The notes beneath the pieces are model-generated. The model was not told the DNA's origin. It made no database searches and worked only from the letters and a program-made list of their open reading frames with translations. A stretch of DNA of 46,427 nt from positions 1 through 46,427 of the forward strand of contig JASJBF010000011.1 of NCBI GenBank assembly GCA_030066685.1. Direction: 5' to 3'. Made by a program: the position numbers and the translations under genes. Origin of the DNA: Kiloniellales bacterium (lineage in GTDB: Bacteria; Pseudomonadota; Alphaproteobacteria; Kiloniellales; JAKSBE01). Positions 14,138 through 46,091 of this stretch are shown piece by piece. The stretch's first letter is position 1. Each line of letters begins with the position of its first letter.

Positions 14138-14317
14138 GGGCCTGATCCCCTTATTGTTCTTGTCACCCCCCAGGGCGGCCGCCTCGCCCGACCCATCCGA
14201 TAGACTGCGACGGACGCGGTCGGCGCGCAAGGGGTCGCGCCGGAATCCGACCCTGAGCCAATGGGGAACCCCGCCAGGCCGACTTGCTCCGGCGGGCCCA
14301 CCGCAGCAGCCAGGCGC

Positions 14318-14346
14318 TTGACTCACGCGAGTCCGGAATTTAGTAT
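14318..14346 (+). promoter_or_regulatory. Sigma-70-type promoter for the Ldi-like gene
   Basis: TTGACT at 14318-14323 and TAGTAT at 14341-14346 are separated by exactly 17 bp. The -10 hexamer lies inside the left arm of the palindrome at 14339-14364, so a repressor bound there would block polymerase. The downstream gene starts at 14377 after AAAGGAG, giving a short leader. Confidence 0.6.
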
Positions 14347-14364
14347 ACCGATCAGTATACTAAA
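14339..14364. promoter_or_regulatory. Palindromic operator, probable TetR-type site
   Basis: TTTAGTATAC at 14339-14348 is the perfect complement of GTATACTAAA at 14355-14364, with a 6-bp spacer CGATCA. The 26-bp site overlaps the -10 element of the promoter. The second gene of the transcript is a TetR-family regulator, which makes autorepression the simplest model. Confidence 0.75.
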
Positions 14365-14376
14365 GGAGCCGAAACG

Positions 14377-15423
14377 ATGCGAGCGATTGTGAGCGATCCG
14401 ACCTCGGCGGCGAAGGACCGCCTCGAGCGGTGCTATTCCGGCGGTGCGTGCGACTGGACCCGGATCTATCGGCCGAAGAGGGAGATGCTGAACTTCGCGA
14501 GCCGCTATCACCTGGTCTATCCGGCGCTCGCTTACTTCGTCGAACTCAAGCGGGATCCAAGCCAGGCCGAGAGGCTGCGGCCACAGCTGGATGCGATCTA
14601 TCGCGGCCTTCTCGAACCGAGGTGCTGGACCTACTGGCATAGCGAGCTCGGCGAGCAGACCTGGCCGTTGCAGGAACGGAACCTGACCTATGCCGGGCGT
14701 CTCGCGACCTTCATCGGGTTCTACATCGACGCCTTCGGCGCGCCGCCGGCCGACCGCATCGAGCTCGAGGGGCGTGCGACGACCTATGAGGAGCTCTCCC
14801 GCGGACTCTGGGAACAGATGACGGTATCGCCGAGCTGCGGCGTGAGCTGCTACCACCACCAGTCGATGGTGATGTGCAACGCGCACATGCTGATCAACAA
14901 CAGGCTCCACGATCGCCTCTTCGGGACCGATTTCGCCGCCGCGAACGCCAGGTGGCTGGCAACCGTCGAGGACCATCTGCTGAGCGGCGAGGAGACCGGC
15001 CCGCTGTTCTACTTCGGCACCCAGCCGGACAAGCCGTTCCCGCTGGTCGAGAAGCGTGCGCTGGGCGCGGACATCTGGGCGCTTTTCCTGATGAGCGGGG
15101 TCGTGCCGGATCGCGTGACGACCTGGTTCGAGCGCTGGCAGCGGAACATCGTCTCCGCGGGCGGCGGCGCCTTCGTCCGGGTCGCCGACTGGGAAGCCGA
15201 GCAGGAGTTCTCGTCGAACGAACTTGCCACGGCCTGGGCCTTCTGCCTGGCCAAGGAACTGGGGCAAAGGAGCCGGGCGGAACGTCTACGACGGTATCTT
15301 GTGCCAAGGGTCGAGGATGGTTTCGAGCTCGATCCCTACAATACCGGTCTGTTCCTGCTGGGCGAAGGCCTGGAAGCAGGCGCCTTCCACCGGCTGATCA
15401 ACGGCCCGCTTGGAAGAGCATAG
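14377..15423 (+). CDS. Linalool dehydratase/isomerase-like protein
   Basis: The product is 348 residues with AAAGGAG eight bases before ATG. It resembles the helical (alpha/alpha)-barrel linalool dehydratase-isomerase family (PF18566-like). Recognisable segments are CWTYWHSELGEQTWPLQERN around residue 83, LTYAGRLATFIGFYIDAFG, and CYHHQSMVMCNAHMLINNRL with C158 and C167 nine residues apart, the same spacing as the two active-site cysteines of the characterised enzyme; HDRLFGTDF follows. No signal peptide is seen, whereas the characterised enzyme is periplasmic. A hydratase/dehydratase role on a terpenoid or other substrate is an inference. Its TAG stop overlaps the GTG start of a TetR gene by one base. 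Confidence 0.65.
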   Translation: MRAIVSDPTSAAKDRLERCYSGGACDWTRIYRPKREMLNFASRYHLVYPALAYFVELKRDPSQAERLRPQLDAIYRGLLEPRCWTYWHSELGEQTWPLQERNLTYAGRLATFIGFYIDAFGAPPADRIELEGRATTYEELSRGLWEQMTVSPSCGVSCYHHQSMVMCNAHMLINNRLHDRLFGTDFAAANARWLATVEDHLLSGEETGPLFYFGTQPDKPFPLVEKRALGADIWALFLMSGVVPDRVTTWFERWQRNIVSAGGGAFVRVADWEAEQEFSSNELATAWAFCLAKELGQRSRAERLRRYLVPRVEDGFELDPYNTGLFLLGEGLEAGAFHRLINGPLGRA

Positions 15424-16016
15424 TGCGCGGCATACCGGCGGAGACCCGAAGGCGCATCCTCGAAGCCGCAGCGGATCTGTTCTATGCCAAGGGTATTCGC
15501 GCCGTCGGCGTCGACGCCGTCGCTTCGGCGGCAGGGGTCACGAAACGGACCCTCTACCTACATTTCGACAGCAAGGACGATCTGATCGCGGCCGTCCTGG
15601 AGGCGCGAAACGAGCCCGTCCTCGCCGGCTTGATCAAGTCGATGAATCGGGTCTCCGGTGGCCTTGCAGCGCAGGTCGAAGGCTTGTTCCGGGCCTTCGC
15701 CCGGCAGGCCGGCAATCCGAAATGGCAGGGCTGCCCCTTCGCCCGCGCGGTCTCGGAACTTCGCGAGACCCCGAACGAAGCCGTCTCCGACATCGCGGCG
15801 AAGCACAAGCGGGCCTTCGAGGAATGGCTGGCGGGTCACCTGGCATCCCACGGCGTCAATGAGCCGGCCCGGCTCGCCCGGCAATTGATGGTCTTGCTTG
15901 ACGGCTGCATCACCCAGATCCTGATCCATCGCGATCCCGCCTATGCGGAGGCGGCCGCAGATGCGGCGGTCGAGCTGGTCGAGCACCGACTGTCCGACAA
16001 GCGTAAGGCCGACTGA
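15423..16016 (+). CDS. TetR/AcrR-family transcriptional regulator
   Basis: The product is about 197 residues from GTG 15423, which overlaps the preceding stop (TAGTG); GGAAGAG lies upstream. The N-terminal HTH is classical: RRRILEAAADLFYAKGIRAV, then VDAVASAAGVTKRTLYLHFD and SKDDLIAAVLEAR. The C-terminal ligand domain has GNPKWQGCPFARAVSELRE and a late helix LMVLLDGCITQILIH. Coupling with the Ldi-like enzyme and the palindrome upstream of both argue that it represses its own operon and responds to the enzyme's substrate or product. Confidence 0.92.
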   Translation: MRGIPAETRRRILEAAADLFYAKGIRAVGVDAVASAAGVTKRTLYLHFDSKDDLIAAVLEARNEPVLAGLIKSMNRVSGGLAAQVEGLFRAFARQAGNPKWQGCPFARAVSELRETPNEAVSDIAAKHKRAFEEWLAGHLASHGVNEPARLARQLMVLLDGCITQILIHRDPAYAEAAADAAVELVEHRLSDKRKAD

Positions 16017-16078
16017 CGCAGGGTTGCGCAAGGGCGCTGATTGCCCGGCGTCGGAAGCTGTGCCACCTTCGCCTCGGC

Positions 16079-40283: not shown

Positions 40284-42062
40284 ATGACCGCCGAGCAGTC
40301 CGCCGTCTTCGCCATCCTCGTCGCCGTGATGGCGCTCCTGATCTGGGGCCGCTGGCGCTACGACCTGGTGGCCTTCGCGGCCCTGCTGGTCGCGGTGGTC
40401 GCCGGAGTCGTCCCGGGCGACCGGGCCTTCGCGGGCTTCGGCCATCCGGCGACGGTGGTCATCGCCATGGTCCTCATCGTCAGCCGGGGGCTCAGCAACT
40501 CCGGCGCGGTCGACCTCCTGACCCGGGCGATCTCGGGCCTGGCGCGGGGCCTGACCAGCCACATCCTGGTGATGTCCGGCCTGGCCGGGGTGCTCTCGGC
40601 GGTGATGAACAACGTCGGCGCCCTGGCGCTCCTGATGCCGGTCGACATCCAGGCCGCGCGCAAGGCCAAGCGCGCCGCCTCGCTGACCCTGATGCCGCTG
40701 TCCTTCGCCTCGATCCTGGGCGGCCTGGTGACCCTGATCGGCACCCCGCCCAACATCATCATCGCCGCCTTCCGCGAGGACGCCCTGGGCGCCCCCTTCG
40801 GCATGTTCGACTTCACCCCGGTCGGCGGCGCCTGCGCCCTGGCCGGGATCGCCTTCGTCGCCCTGATCGGCTGGCGCCTGATCCCCAAGGACCGGGGCGG
40901 CGCCACCGACGCCAAGGCCTTCGAGCTGGAGGACTACATCGCCGAGGCCCGGGTCCCGAAGGACAGCAAGGTCGCCGGCAAGAAGCTGCGCGAGCTGGAC
41001 GTCGCCGCCCAGGACGCCGAGGTCGACATCATCGGCCTGGTCCGCGGCGGCCAGCGCCTGGCCGGCATGGCCCGGCACCAGGAGATCCGCGAGGGCGACC
41101 TGCTGGTGATCGAGGGCGGGCCCGACGACATCGAGCGCCTGATCGCCAACCTCAAGCTGGAGCACGCGGTGGTCACCGAGGCCAAGACCGGCCTCCTGTC
41201 CAGCGACGACGTGGCGGTCATGGAGGTGGTGGTCCCGCCGGGCGCCCGGGTGGTCGGGCGCAGCACCATGAGCCTGCGCCTGAAGTACCGCTTCGGCGTC
41301 CACCTCCTGGGCATCGCGCGCCGCGGCAAGCGCTTCCGCGAGCGGCTGCGCCACCTCTCGGTCGAGGCCGGCGATGTGCTGCTGCTCCAGGGCAACGCCA
41401 ACGAGCTGCCCGAGGTGGTCCGCTGGCTCGGCTGCCTGCCCTTGGGGGAGCGCGGGGTCCAGGGCGGCCGGCGCGGCAGCGCGATCATCTGCGGCAGCAT
41501 CTTCGCCCTCGCGATCCTGCTGGCCAGTCTGGGCTGGCTCTACCTGCCGGTCGCGCTGAGCGCCGCCGCCGCGGCCATGGTCTTCCTGAAGATCGTGCCG
41601 CCGCGCGACATCTACGAGAACGTCGAGTGGCCGGTGATCGTGCTGATCGGCTCGATGATCCCGATCGGCCAGGCCCTGGAGGCGACCGGCGGCACGGAGA
41701 TCATCGCTTCCGGCATCCTGGCCCTGTCCCAGGGCTATCCGGCGGTGGTGGTCCTTGTCCTGCTGATGGTCATCGTCATGACCCTCTCCGACGTGATGAA
41801 CAACACGGCCACCGCCGTGGTCGCCGCCCCCATCGCGGTCGAGATCGCGCGTCGCCTGGACGCCAACCCCGACCCCTTCCTGATGACGGTCGCGGTCGCC
41901 GCCTCCTGCGCCTTCCTGACCCCGATCGGGCACAAGAACAACACGCTAATTCTTGGCGCAGGCGGCTATAAGTTCGGGGACTATTGGAGGATGGGGCTCC
42001 CGCTGGAAATCCTAATTGTCGCTGTCTCAATCCCCATGATCCTGTGGGTTTGGCCTCTCTAG
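40284..42062 (+). CDS. SLC13-type anion permease with TrkA-C domains; C-terminus supplied by an island
   Basis: The product is 592 residues. Membrane helices occupy residues 1-200 and 395-592. Between them lie two RCK_C/TrkA-C-like soluble domains (KKLRELDVAAQDAEVDIIGL and STMSLRLKYRFGVHLLGIAR). Conserved half-repeat motifs are SAVMNNVGALALLMPV with GTPPNIIIA, and SDVMNNTATAVVAAP. From about codon 554 (near 41943) codon use changes sharply to CTA, ATT, CTT, AGG, TCA and GTT, yet the protein stays in family (GYKFGDYWRMGLPLEI). The original 3' end appears to lie at 46092-46184. The gene should still be functional. Confidence 0.9.
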   Translation: MTAEQSAVFAILVAVMALLIWGRWRYDLVAFAALLVAVVAGVVPGDRAFAGFGHPATVVIAMVLIVSRGLSNSGAVDLLTRAISGLARGLTSHILVMSGLAGVLSAVMNNVGALALLMPVDIQAARKAKRAASLTLMPLSFASILGGLVTLIGTPPNIIIAAFREDALGAPFGMFDFTPVGGACALAGIAFVALIGWRLIPKDRGGATDAKAFELEDYIAEARVPKDSKVAGKKLRELDVAAQDAEVDIIGLVRGGQRLAGMARHQEIREGDLLVIEGGPDDIERLIANLKLEHAVVTEAKTGLLSSDDVAVMEVVVPPGARVVGRSTMSLRLKYRFGVHLLGIARRGKRFRERLRHLSVEAGDVLLLQGNANELPEVVRWLGCLPLGERGVQGGRRGSAIICGSIFALAILLASLGWLYLPVALSAAAAAMVFLKIVPPRDIYENVEWPVIVLIGSMIPIGQALEATGGTEIIASGILALSQGYPAVVVLVLLMVIVMTLSDVMNNTATAVVAAPIAVEIARRLDANPDPFLMTVAVAASCAFLTPIGHKNNTLILGAGGYKFGDYWRMGLPLEILIVAVSIPMILWVWPL

Positions 42063-42102
42063 GTGCCTAGGCCTAGTTGACCAACGGGCGTACAATACAG
42101 CG

Positions 42103-42333
42103 ATGTTGCGCCTTGCCTTGCCCCTTGCCCTGCTCCTTGCCGGGTGCGGCCAAACCGGCATGGTTCTGAAAAACCCAGAAACGGGCAAAACAGTTGGCTG
42201 CAACGAGTGGTATTGGTGGACCTATAACGACGCTGGCAAGGCCAATGCCGAGTCGTTGGTAGAGCATTGTGCAAAGCAATGGGAAGCCCAAGGCTACATT
42301 GGGATAAGGAGGCCACGTCCGAGCGGGACCTAA
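42103..42333 (+). CDS. Small lipoprotein, island gene
   Basis: The product is 76 residues. The signal MLRLALPLALLLAGC ends in a clear lipobox with the acylated cysteine at residue 15. The mature part contains KNPETGKTVGCNEWYWWTYN and a second cysteine pair partner in EHCAKQWEAQGY. Small lipoproteins of this shape are common in alphaproteobacteria and without function. It starts 40 bp after the transporter's new stop. Confidence 0.65.
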   Translation: MLRLALPLALLLAGCGQTGMVLKNPETGKTVGCNEWYWWTYNDAGKANAESLVEHCAKQWEAQGYIGIRRPRPSGT

Positions 42334-42730
42334 GCCTAAAGCAAGATCAGCACCACCCAGAGCCATACGCGAAGCACCCTGGCCCATTCGCGCAGCTCCT
42401 GGGAGACCGCGCGGGCGATAACAAGCCATCGTGGGAAAAAGGGTTCGGGCGCAGCCATACGTCCAGAAACAAAGGTTCCACCAAAATGTCGCCAAGCACT
42501 TTGCTTGCGTCATCGACCCGTTGGGCGGAAACCTCTGCGCCTCCGATGGCTGATACGAGAGAGAAGTGATTCATCTCCTGATTTTCACCCCGTGTCAACA
42601 GCACGGCATCGGCCAGCGCGGAAAACCTGTTGATGTTTCTGTGGGTTTCCAGTCAGTTAAGCCTGGGGATTGTCGAGAGTATGTTTGCCACCCGGGGGGC
42701 GCTGGCCTATGGATGGTTGACTAAGACCGA
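42334..42730. other. 397-bp stretch without a convincing gene
   Basis: Frames on both strands are short. A minus-strand frame at 42347-42571 (start MNHFSLVSAIGGAEVSAQ) has a plausible first half but a low-complexity end. A small plus frame at 42633-42734 is annotated separately. The stretch may hold remnants of island genes. Confidence 0.35.
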
Positions 42731-42734
42731 ATGA
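42633..42734 (+). CDS. Possible small hydrophobic ORF coupled to the next gene
   Basis: ATG 42633 to TGA 42734 encodes 33 residues, beginning MFLWVSSQLSLGIVESMFAT, partly hydrophobic. Its stop overlaps the next ATG by four bases (ATGA). That overlap is the main support; there is no clear ribosome site, and it may be the tail of a lost gene. Confidence 0.25.
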   Translation: MFLWVSSQLSLGIVESMFATRGALAYGWLTKTE

Positions 42735-43141
42735 GAACATATTATGAACATATAGGGCGGATGAATAGCGAGCTATTCAAGCAAAGGGCCGAACGACTCT
42801 ATCCGTACAAAGTCGATATTACTGTCCCTCCCGAAGGGCTGGGGAAGCGGCTGGATCAAATGTTCAATTGGCTGGGCTGTGACGGGCTTCGTATCCCTGT
42901 CTGGGACCAGCACGGCCACTCAGAACCAGGGAACCCTCCGAAGCACTTCGCCCGGTTCTATTTCGTGAGCGAGAAACAGGCCAAGGATTTTGAGAAAGAG
43001 TTTGGACAATGGGCGCGGAAAGCGAAAGCGGCTCTGGAGGCCGTGGCCCAAGTGATCGTGATATTCGGGAAGCGGCTTCTAGATGCGAGATCAGCACCCG
43101 TGGCTTCGACCCGGACACCAACACCAGAACTGTTAGCGTAG
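42731..43141 (+). CDS. Hypothetical protein, island gene
   Basis: The product is 136 residues from ATG 42731, or 126 from ATG 42761. The central part looks like a real folded domain: RLYPYKVDITVPPEGLGKRL, FNWLGCDGLRIPVWDQHG, HFARFYFVSEKQAKDFEKEF. The last ~35 residues look less natural and the gene may be frameshifted near its end. I recognise no family. It converges on the DUF4062 gene, whose stop is 8 bp away. Confidence 0.5.
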   Translation: MRTYYEHIGRMNSELFKQRAERLYPYKVDITVPPEGLGKRLDQMFNWLGCDGLRIPVWDQHGHSEPGNPPKHFARFYFVSEKQAKDFEKEFGQWARKAKAALEAVAQVIVIFGKRLLDARSAPVASTRTPTPELLA

Positions 43142-43148
43142 GTGATTT

Positions 43149-44237
43149 CTACGTTGACGTGGACTTCGCGGCTTCGGAGGGCTTTGGAGAAGGTTCTTCG
43201 TGGCCTTCCCTCCTAATTGCTCTTAGCTGCGTCATATACGAATCGCCGTAAGGTGTGAGCGTCCAGTAGTTTTGGGTGTCCTTCACGCTTCGGCTTTTGA
43301 CGCTTTTCGCTATGAGTTTCAGCGCGAGCAACTGCACCTTAATGGTGTCGAAGTCATTGTCATCGATCTGGAAGTCGATTATTGTAAACCCATTGAACTC
43401 CGCTCTTTCACTTAATGGAACAATATTTACTTCCGTAGTCATATCATCTAAAGCGCGCTTGATTTCGCGATCTGATGCCTCATCAATCATAAGAGGTGAG
43501 ATTCGTGAGAATATCTGCGACCAAGAAGCATCAAAAGTCGTGTGATGTATAGTGGATCTATAAAAATTTGCCCCTTCGTATGACTTGAATGTGAAACTTA
43601 TCCTATATTGTTCGTCTCCTTGCGCTAAATGCTCAGTATCTTTCGGGGCAGATGTGCGCGATAGTTCAAGTTCTCGCTCAAGAGAGTCGACAATTTTTCT
43701 CAGTTCAAGTATCTCTTCTGTGGTCGCCTTTGATGGGAGCAAATCTGCTTTCACCCAACCTACAGCCGGATTATTCTTTATCAGCTTAACGAGACTCCGG
43801 CTGACGACAGAGCCGAGATCTGCTGGGCTCGTCCAATATTTGACCACCTTCTGTTGAGCTAGCTGACGAAACGCTTCTAGCTTTTTCGCGTTCTCTGGAT
43901 CTTTCTCGGTATGCTCAGCGGGGAGCTTTCCTGGCTCCTTGTGTAAGAATGCTATTACTGGCTTACCCATCGAGACAGCATACTCGTATTCCAACTGCGT
44001 AAAGCTCTTTTCATCTGGCCCAAGAGAGCCATAGCGTCCGCCAATTATGACGATGTAATAGTCGCAATCATCTATGACACGCTTTATCAAAGTCCACTGA
44101 TCATCATCTGCGGCAGGGAACAATTCCATACCGGCAGGGATGCAGTCCAACTCCAAAAGCGCCTGCATCACTTCCTGCCGGGCTTCGAGTAGGTCGGTAT
44201 AAGTGGAACTTACAAAGACCTGATAGCGTTTGTCCAT
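43149..44237 (-). CDS. DUF4062-domain protein with C-terminal winged-helix-like region
   Basis: The product is 362 residues. Residues 4-105 are a DUF4062 domain: YQVFVSSTYTDLLEARQEVM, AGMELFPAADDDQWTLIKRV, CDYYIVIIGGRYGSLGPDEK and YEYAVSMGKPVIAFLH. This fold is related to TIR and nucleotide-processing Rossmann domains and often occurs in prokaryotic immune and NTPase proteins. A short coiled coil (LRKIVDSLERELELS) precedes a unique domain ending NYWTLTPYGDSYMTQLRA, like a winged helix. Codons are AT-richer than in host genes. It is the last gene of the island's minus-strand cluster. Confidence 0.8.
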   Translation of the reverse strand: MDKRYQVFVSSTYTDLLEARQEVMQALLELDCIPAGMELFPAADDDQWTLIKRVIDDCDYYIVIIGGRYGSLGPDEKSFTQLEYEYAVSMGKPVIAFLHKEPGKLPAEHTEKDPENAKKLEAFRQLAQQKVVKYWTSPADLGSVVSRSLVKLIKNNPAVGWVKADLLPSKATTEEILELRKIVDSLERELELSRTSAPKDTEHLAQGDEQYRISFTFKSYEGANFYRSTIHHTTFDASWSQIFSRISPLMIDEASDREIKRALDDMTTEVNIVPLSERAEFNGFTIIDFQIDDNDFDTIKVQLLALKLIAKSVKSRSVKDTQNYWTLTPYGDSYMTQLRAIRREGHEEPSPKPSEAAKSTST

Positions 44238-44314
44238 TTCCTACCAAATCCAATATCGGGTTCTGTCGGCGAATCGGGTAGAAGTGGAACCTAGCACCGC
44301 TGATGCCAATTCTA

Positions 44315-44515
44315 CTATGGTCGGACAGCGACTCCCCCTAGAACGGATTCTCGCCGCCCCGGATTCGCGGATTTGATTCCCAGGTAGGGGTTGGCGGCCC
44401 AGAAATCCAGATCGCTCTGTATGACTCTTAGAATGGCTTCTAGGGGGTGTCTATGCTTAGCTAGCAAACGACTATCGCAAAGCACATCAAGAGCCATTAT
44501 CGATGCCCGCACCAA
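44315..44515 (-). CDS. Possible small ORF in the island cluster
   Basis: A 66-residue frame starts at TTG 44515 inside the end of the preceding gene, has no ribosome site, and ends at 44315. Its C-terminal part (SDLDFWAANPYLGIKSANPG) looks protein-like, its start does not. It may be chance. The remaining 258 bp between the neighbouring genes shows nothing else. Confidence 0.2.
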   Translation of the reverse strand: MVRASIMALDVLCDSRLLAKHRHPLEAILRVIQSDLDFWAANPYLGIKSANPGRRESVLGGVAVRP

Positions 44516-44919
44516 TATTCTGCTGCTTCTGTGCCAAAGAGCGTTGCCGTTGTGCTGAGATCACTAGCAGCAGACCGGGAAGCATGAAGCTCTAGCACCC
44601 GAAGGGCGTGTTGTTTTGACACGCGGCTCCCGTTCAAGGTCTCGGTCTTAAAACGTTCACACTTCCCTTCTAATGCATACACGTAAGCCGCGCCTTGAAT
44701 GGCGCCTATGTTCTGATGTACAGCACTCCAGCTTAGGCTTACGTTGTTATCCAATTTCGTGCGCGACCGCTCATTCAAGATCACCTGGGCGAGTTGATAC
44801 ATAGTCACTCTCACTTTTTCTGTTGCCGCCGCCCTAGCGAAAGGGAACACCCCAACACCAATGGCCACGAAAAGGAAAATGGCGAGGTAGTGACGATTGC
44901 AAGAGTTAAAGAAGATCAT
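44497..44919 (-). CDS. Secreted small protein of unknown function, island gene
   Basis: The product is 140 residues. A signal peptide (YLAIFLFVAIGVGVFPFARA) is followed by a helical domain with IGAIQGAAYVYALEGKCERF and a C-terminal EAAEYWCGHR. The two cysteines and the GAIQGAAY-type helix recall the Rap1a/Tai immunity-protein fold, but the match is weak. Its ATG is two bases after the stop of the TIR-like gene, so the two are very likely co-translated. Confidence 0.55.
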   Translation of the reverse strand: MIFFNSCNRHYLAIFLFVAIGVGVFPFARAAATEKVRVTMYQLAQVILNERSRTKLDNNVSLSWSAVHQNIGAIQGAAYVYALEGKCERFKTETLNGSRVSKQHALRVLELHASRSAASDLSTTATLFGTEAAEYWCGHR

Positions 44920-44921
44920 TT

Positions 44922-45800
44922 CTACTCGTCAAAAACAAAATCAACAGACATCTTGTTTTCTCTTGCAAGTGAATCGACGGCTCTGCAAAAATCTTCAATC
45001 CCAGGTATTTCCCTTTGTACGCCTTGAAAAAATTCGAGTTCGAAATGATCTGGTCCTACGACATGAACAGCAGCAGGAACTCCTTGGTTATTGACCATAT
45101 TCCGTATCCGATGTTCAACTTTCTTACGGAGACTTTGGCGTGAGCGAGAAGGCCTGGGCAAGTTGCCGTCAATCATCCTATCAATATCAGCGAAACTAAG
45201 GGGATTCCCTTCTCTTTGGCCTTCAACCAGGCTTCGCAGATATTCCAGCTGTTTGTTGATGAGCGCGAATTGAGCCTCTGCTCCTGGTTTTTCCTCTAAC
45301 GGCTCTGCCTTCACGGTTACGCTAAAGTACTTCCAAAGGGCGTTGCCTTCGTCGATTTTTGAAAGGCAACTTTGTAGATGGTTTTTCAGGCCGCCAATTT
45401 GCTGCTTCATCTCCCAGGAATGTAGAGTGGAGCTATAGGTGTAGTGATTGATTATGTTTAGATCGAATGGCGCCTTTGGTGTGTCTCGGTCTTTCACAAG
45501 GGCTACCGGCTTATTGGCTGCTGTCCGCATTCCTAGTTCGAAGAACACATTTGCATTCAAAGAGGACATGTCGCATAGCAGCATGTCAGCAGTTTCGATG
45601 TGCTTTATAATATCTCCGTGAATGATTTCAGAGCCTTCAGAAATCGGTCGAATTGCCTCTAGATCAGCGGCCTCCACCGCAGGGACGAATAGCTCCTCCA
45701 ATACATACTTGAAGTGCTCCCGGCCCCCACTGTAGGTCTCAACTAAATCTGGGGGCGTGGTGATAGGCATAATGATGAAGCATGTCTTCTTCTTGGCCAT
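44922..45800 (-). CDS. TIR-like/nucleoside 2-deoxyribosyltransferase-like protein
   Basis: The product is 292 residues. The N-terminal ~130 residues have the pattern of TIR-like effectors such as those in CBASS and Pycsar systems: FIIMPITTPP, HFKYVLEELFVPAVEAADL, IIKHIETADMLLCDMSSLNA, then NVFFELGMRTAANKPVALV, where the glutamate in FELG is the expected catalytic residue. This fold cleaves NAD or nucleosides in known members. Residues 130-292 are an uncharacterised region with a basic stretch (LPRPSRSRQSLRKKVEHRIR). No cyclase gene is next to it. It leads the cluster with the secreted protein and DUF4062 genes. Confidence 0.7.
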   Translation of the reverse strand: MAKKKTCFIIMPITTPPDLVETYSGGREHFKYVLEELFVPAVEAADLEAIRPISEGSEIIHGDIIKHIETADMLLCDMSSLNANVFFELGMRTAANKPVALVKDRDTPKAPFDLNIINHYTYSSTLHSWEMKQQIGGLKNHLQSCLSKIDEGNALWKYFSVTVKAEPLEEKPGAEAQFALINKQLEYLRSLVEGQREGNPLSFADIDRMIDGNLPRPSRSRQSLRKKVEHRIRNMVNNQGVPAAVHVVGPDHFELEFFQGVQREIPGIEDFCRAVDSLARENKMSVDFVFDE

Positions 45801-46091
45801 TCGTGCAGCCCTTTGGTTGGCGGCTCTTAGTTGTCGACAGCAAGGAGCCTACAACAAAGGGTAGATCATTTGTCAACGAAGGTGATTGCTCCTCCTGTGC
45901 TAATTTCACGGCGCTTGATGCCCTCTGTATTCAGAGGGTCGTTAGCCTCGAAGACGAAAACTTCGGGGCAGGGAACACCTGGAAATGCCATTTATGGATA
46001 TATGGATAGCTTGGGATTGTCACCTGCCAGAGCCTGTGTCGCTGTGCAGAAAACTCCCAAAATGTCCCTCAATCCCGGGGCGGGCCGCAAC
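45801..46091. other. Right-hand non-coding end of the island
   Basis: This 291-bp stretch upstream of the TIR-like gene should contain its promoter. A small hairpin (CGAAG with CTTCG) lies near 45949-45965. No gene is convincing. The sequence runs into the host-like transporter end at about 46092. Confidence 0.4.

Follow-up and report, generated by a model that had tools for sequence, protein, structure and literature searches.

The 46,427-nucleotide stretch of Kiloniellales DNA analysed here (the window) carries a two-gene unit that is rare and occurs mainly in Alphaproteobacteria. In this unit an uncharacterised clade of the linalool dehydratase/isomerase (Ldi) superfamily is joined to a dedicated repressor, and the two have probably moved as a unit. 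We regard the finding as sound but modest. To the first-pass annotation of this DNA it adds that other genomes conserve the pair and sister species lack it, that its operator is unique, and that several relatives carry extended palindromes. The features are listed in Table 1.

Table 1. Features of the enzyme-repressor module in the window
Feature	Position	Strand	Remark
Left 8-bp direct repeat GCGCAAGG	14225..14232		Insertion boundary; sister species G745 has one copy at its empty site
-35 hexamer TTGACT	14318..14323	+	Promoter search
-10 hexamer TAGTAT	14341..14346	+	Promoter search; within the operator
Operator TTTAGTATAC-CGATCA-GTATACTAAA	14339..14364		Perfect 10-6-10 palindrome
Ribosome-binding site AAAGGAG	14362..14368	+	8 nt 5' of ATG; overlaps operator end
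Ldi-superfamily enzyme, 348 aa	14377..15423	+	Cys158/Cys167 pair, predicted (alpha/alpha)6 barrel
TetR-family repressor, 197 aa	15423..16016	+	GTG start
Right 8-bp direct repeat GCGCAAGG	16026..16033		Insertion boundary

The annotation had described an Ldi-like enzyme in an autoregulated TetR operon. The enzyme gene is confirmed by a Pfam Ldi match of the open reading frame 14377-15423, and promoter, operator, coupling and conservation of the pair all fit the layout of an autoregulated operon. The TAGTG junction between the genes is present, the GTG of tetR overlapping the TAG stop of the enzyme by one base. A promoter-like site, TTGACT-17-TAGTAT (14318-14346), carries 9 of 12 consensus bases (one found versus 0.2 expected); transcription would be expected to start at about 14353-14355. 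TTGAC also stands 5' of the enzyme in seven of ten relatives when inspected by eye. The perfect 10+10 palindrome that the annotation had placed on the promoter is found at 14339-14364 and covers the -10 hexamer. It is more than a product of chance, since no such palindrome, at up to three mismatches, arose in 100 shuffles of the window and the site is the only one of its kind in the 5.96-Mb genome. Elsewhere in the window, G+C content falls to 0.49-0.52 at 42001-46000, versus 0.62-0.74 in the other 2-kb blocks.

We scanned a genome collection with two exact motif patterns and obtained ten loci, which together with the window make 11 distinct ones (L002, L005, L006 and L020-L024 are repeats of counted loci; L006 equals L010 and L005 equals L018). 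Because the patterns are exact, more distant members, perhaps without a TetR gene, would be missed. Nine of the locus titles name Alphaproteobacteria or a subgroup, and that of L014 only Proteobacteria. The TetR gene adjoins the enzyme gene in all 11 loci: directly downstream in nine (L015 is one of these, and so is L019, whose enzyme gene is frameshifted), upstream in L016 and divergent in L017. In L015 an insert of about 4.1 kb (L015:11229-15378) splits tetR but leaves the operator and the reading frame of the enzyme undamaged. With 14 of 20 consensus bases as the minimum, an operator occurs in 8 of the 11 loci, once each and 5' of the enzyme, and its arms are nearly identical and stand at the same place in relatives despite diverged surrounding sequence. 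The L014 operator is imperfect (5 of 10 arm pairs), and at this threshold no match was found in L016, L017 or L018, where inspection by eye gives degenerate versions (L016, L018) and a half site (L017). The TetR proteins of L016 and L017 are also more distant (45% and 42% identity, long branches). Taken together, these exceptions show that the pair is not a frozen unit everywhere. For 36 pairs of loci, enzyme identity rises with TetR identity (r 0.84, kinship ignored); in the enzyme tree, just one of seven internal branches has good support. Protein alignments leave out the frameshifted enzyme of L019, and the TetR alignment leaves out the split gene of L015.

We also looked for further genes that travel with the pair. 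Fifty-five other ORF clusters are common to more than one locus, and 20 of them span more than two: three lie antisense to the two genes, 12 reflect synteny of L012, L013 and L019, and the remaining five occur in at most four loci each. Leaving aside these five clusters of three or four loci, no shared catabolic neighbour beyond TetR was recognised in the loci. The clade is sparsely distributed: 1 of 398 genomes in a phylum sample and 1 of 3 in the genus and family (in both cases the window's own genome), 2 of 385 in a class sample of genome G184, the source of locus L010, and 1 of 2 in the order of G184. The Pfam Ldi family as a whole was found in 7 of 385 genomes of the class and 3 of 299 of the phylum, own genome counted. 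Among viral contigs, 57 stretches fit the motif pattern and none encodes a relative of the enzyme, nor did plasmids yield one (tblastn, 1e-5). Our literature search returned no mention of PF18566 and, among titles, none linking Ldi proteins with a TetR regulator. The window's genome holds a second Ldi-domain protein (G000:C13:48850-49743, L001), encoded by an ORF of 688 aa; with its long N-terminal extension it resembles, by eye, the membrane-anchored linalool isomerase (LIS) in layout.

Both sister species (G745 and G746, genomes 99% and 81% complete) are without the module. In G745 the window's left flank runs directly into its right flank, with one copy of the 8-bp repeat at this empty site. 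In G746 the empty junction is likewise spanned by the contig that holds the right flank (by eye); a second contig carries the left flank. The same intergenic spot of G746 has an inverted pair of sequences of about 34 bp, one copy on each of two contigs (L036/L037, by eye), which might mark the insertion of a different element. The enzyme and TetR are 83% and 84% identical to those of G184, the nearest relative and a member of another family, versus 69% for RecR; against G007 the values are 59% and 52% versus 68%, and there the module, less alike than RecR, behaves as it would in ordinary descent. Module G+C is 0.652 versus 0.716 and 0.683 in the 5 kb on either side. The simplest reading would be transfer between the lineages of the window and G184, a comparison that uses a single marker protein, RecR; the module may instead have been lost in the sister species by recombination or deletion between the 8-bp repeats. 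A transposon was considered and rejected: no terminal inverted repeat was seen by eye, and the interval bounded by the 8-bp repeats contains no recognised gene other than these two.

By its sequence the enzyme is a distant member of the Ldi superfamily and is not classed as linalool dehydratase/isomerase (LDI). Pfam Ldi (PF18566) matches residues 54-312 with 56.9 bits (cut-off 26.1, E 3e-15), and LDI chains in the PDB are matched with a best E-value of 2.4e-17 (phmmer); NCBIfam, searched at E up to 1, gave no model. An AlphaFold2 model built from ten sequences (pLDDT 80.9, pTM 0.87) superposes on LDI with Z 31.6 and rmsd 2.9 over 314 aligned residues (model span 6-345). Ten LDI entries score Z 30.8-31.6, and the next entry, dextran dextrinase, 20.7. 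The annotation had proposed the predicted fold as a point on which its case could fail; with LDI the clear best structural match, the model is an LDI-type (alpha/alpha)6 barrel, as expected, with pLDDT below 50 at residues 155-157 and 159-162 of the active-site loop 155-162. Hydropathy also bears out the claim that a signal peptide is missing (maximum 15-residue Kyte-Doolittle mean 0.59 in the first 54 residues), and a LIS-type membrane anchor is absent (highest 19-residue mean 1.12).

We next turn to the active site, for which ten clade members were aligned with six non-clade Ldi proteins, LDI among the six (the other Ldi loci L007, L008 and L009 are not). Excerpts of PMC12455561 give H128, Y44, D38, C179 and C170 as substrate contacts of LDI. 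The two cysteines that the annotation had noted at nine-residue spacing are C158 and C167; they align with C170 and C179 and are kept in all ten members. However, the annotation took them to mark the characterised active site, and the Cys-x8-Cys pair is present in all six non-clade proteins, so it is no marker of linalool chemistry. LDI H128 is replaced by Arg108 and E171 by Tyr159 throughout the clade, and Met124 by Thr in the window enzyme. The N-terminal alignment is weak at the D38 column, which is variable (Asp in the window enzyme, other residues in relatives), and at the Tyr44 column, which holds Tyr in 9 of 10 members. Of the five contacts, only the two cysteines are surely kept. LDI is capped by a C48-C101 disulfide (PMC6600392, in the part seen), which is missing from the alignment of all ten members: the Cys101 column holds Glu, Asp or Thr, and the Cys48 column has no Cys in MAFFT, with Cys25 aligning there in one HHalign run. 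With H128 and E171 replaced, D38 not conserved, and cap and export signal missing, the enzyme is placed in the Ldi superfamily and not with LDI. Loss of the cap together with the missing export signal would fit a cytosolic enzyme. A terpenoid or alkenol substrate is possible; the label of a terpenoid-alcohol enzyme is not earned. Another protein of the same class (L026 in G573, 385 aa) keeps His128, Glu171 and the cysteine pair of LDI and, judged on these residues, is a better LDI candidate than the window enzyme.

The second gene encodes a TetR-family protein (TetR_N 1.9e-17, TetR_C_31 3.6e-8 in Pfam), and its model (pLDDT 92.4) has the TetR helix-turn-helix and an all-helical ligand domain. 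The top structural match is NemR (Z 19.7, rmsd 2.7, 185 residues aligned), tied with SCO4454 (Z 19.6), SAV143 (19.5) and YxaF (19.5); the matches are 21-30% identical and also include CifR.

Overall, we lean, at somewhat better than even confidence, towards a self-contained, horizontally transferred enzyme-repressor module in which a ligand induces the pair and the enzyme removes the inducer. When no inducer is present, a TetR dimer would sit on the single palindrome, where it covers both the -10 box and the predicted start of transcription, and would thereby shut the operon, its own gene included. The repressor would be released by a small hydrophobic compound that is unsaturated or reactive in some other way. 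One mRNA would then yield a cytosolic (alpha/alpha)6-barrel enzyme and, through translational coupling, fresh repressor. The enzyme, with an LDI-type cysteine pair in a pocket presumably remodelled by Arg108, Tyr159 and clade-specific histidines, might hydrate, dehydrate or isomerise the inducer itself, so that the signal is removed and the operon closes.

The annotation's own proposal, in which a TetR responsive to terpenoid alcohols controls a genuine LDI- or LIS-like enzyme acting on linalool, geraniol or myrcene, strikes us as unlikely. It draws on LDI being the sole strong PDB sequence relative and the clear best structural one, on the second, LIS-like Ldi protein of the same genome (its layout judged by eye), and on the precedent of LIS, whose cytoplasm-facing Ldi domain works at 20% identity to LDI (PMC4791888, in part). 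It has to contend, however, with the invariant replacements of H128 and E171, the unconserved D38 and the absent cap, and among the 12 window proteins classified, none next to the module was recognised as terpenoid-related. The same region of the enzyme could be read differently, with the cysteines as metal ligands alongside clade-specific histidines (C-x-H-H...C-x2-H) and a chemistry unlike that of LDI. C158, H160, H161, C167, H170 and H178 are indeed invariant in all ten members, and LDI has no histidine at the places aligned to these four; but the entire stretch 158-175 is invariant, so the histidines are not singled out, and the loop is poorly predicted in the model. Moreover, LDI is cofactor-free and no cofactor was seen in LIS, according to portions of PMC6013536 and PMC4791888. 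We therefore hold a metal site to be highly improbable.

A thiol-based defence against electrophiles or epoxides, with TetR as a NemR-like sensor acting through Cys104 and the enzyme rendering the electrophile harmless, starts from the regulator and seems to us quite unlikely. NemR is the top structural match and CifR, which responds to epoxides, is among the matches; Cys104, aligned to NemR Cys106, is the sole cysteine column kept in all nine TetRs. But the tie with SCO4454, SAV143 and YxaF weakens the structural argument, the Gly-Cys motif also occurs in SCO4454, SAV143 and 3dpj, and none of the nine TetRs has NemR Lys175 or its other five cysteines at those columns. Furthermore, E. coli NemR responds to electrophiles via Cys21 and Cys116 and to bleach via Cys106, as described in a section of PMC7464077. 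Taken on its alignment, Cys104 is a lead for electrophile sensing and no more.

A further observation concerns the operators of relatives. Among 234,558 bases in 11 sequences we found five perfect inverted repeats with arms of at least 14 bp and a loop of at most 8, and four of them are the module operator: L011:9105-9148 (19-bp arms), L012:4549-4610 (28 bp), L013:9953-10002 (22 bp) and L015:9936-9995 (28 bp). The window and L010 have the 10-6-10 core only. The right arm includes the start codon used here in L012 and its first two bases in L013. Outside the core the extended arms vary by species yet stay complementary: 18 of 27 arm pairs across 8 operators (L016, L017 and L018, with no operator match at threshold, are left out) show changes on both sides, 16 of them beyond the 10-bp core. 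None of 500 shuffles reached 18, and slid versions give 8-12; the shuffles ignore relatedness, and the structure tested was itself drawn from the same sequences. There are two candidate causes. Stems of this kind can arise and persist through template switching during replication (excerpted from PMC8794818). Selection for a hairpin that sequesters the ribosome-binding site of read-through transcripts is also plausible, because the module's own transcription would start just right of the palindrome centre.

From these features one can assemble a bolder joint reading, a mobile insulated chemical switch with a reaction new to the Ldi fold and read-through hairpins over the ribosome-binding site, which we consider very unlikely as a whole. 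If it were true, the clade's Arg, Tyr and histidines would replace His, Glu and Asp for the new reaction, and in several lineages the palindromes would begin close to the -35 box and end around the start codon. Read-through RNA from any insertion site would then hide the ribosome-binding site in a hairpin, and only the module's own promoter at the palindrome centre would yield freely translatable RNA. The extended palindromes offer a natural series for setting template switching against selection for transcript insulation. As regards the favoured enzyme-repressor module, the clade has its own regulator, and inducer screening with the TetR-operator pair could thus lead straight to the substrate of this orphan clade. 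Owing to its unique operator and small size, the unit could also serve as a sensor part.

Compared with known systems, the enzyme resembles LDI (LinD) of Castellaniella defragrans (PDB 5HLR, 5G1U) in its predicted (alpha/alpha)6 barrel over nearly the whole length, its Pfam Ldi match and its Cys-x8-Cys pair followed by Asn. LDI is a homopentamer recognised by hydration and isomerisation of monoterpenes. In contrast to it, the window enzyme, 21% identical, lacks the capping disulfide and export signal and is paired with a TetR gene. LIS of Thauera linaloolentis likewise has its Ldi domain in the cytoplasm (PMC4791888, in part), where we would also place the window enzyme, but is 644 aa long with four N-terminal transmembrane helices, whereas the window enzyme has 348 aa and none. 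In the passages available of PMC6600392, PMC6013536 and PMC4791888, LDI and LIS are the only Ldi-fold enzymes described as characterised. The repressor shares the TetR fold over nearly its whole length with NemR, SCO4454, SAV143 and YxaF. Like the repressor gene of the window, nemR adjoins the gene of a detoxifying enzyme, but E. coli nemR lies upstream of nemA, whereas the window repressor lies downstream of its enzyme.
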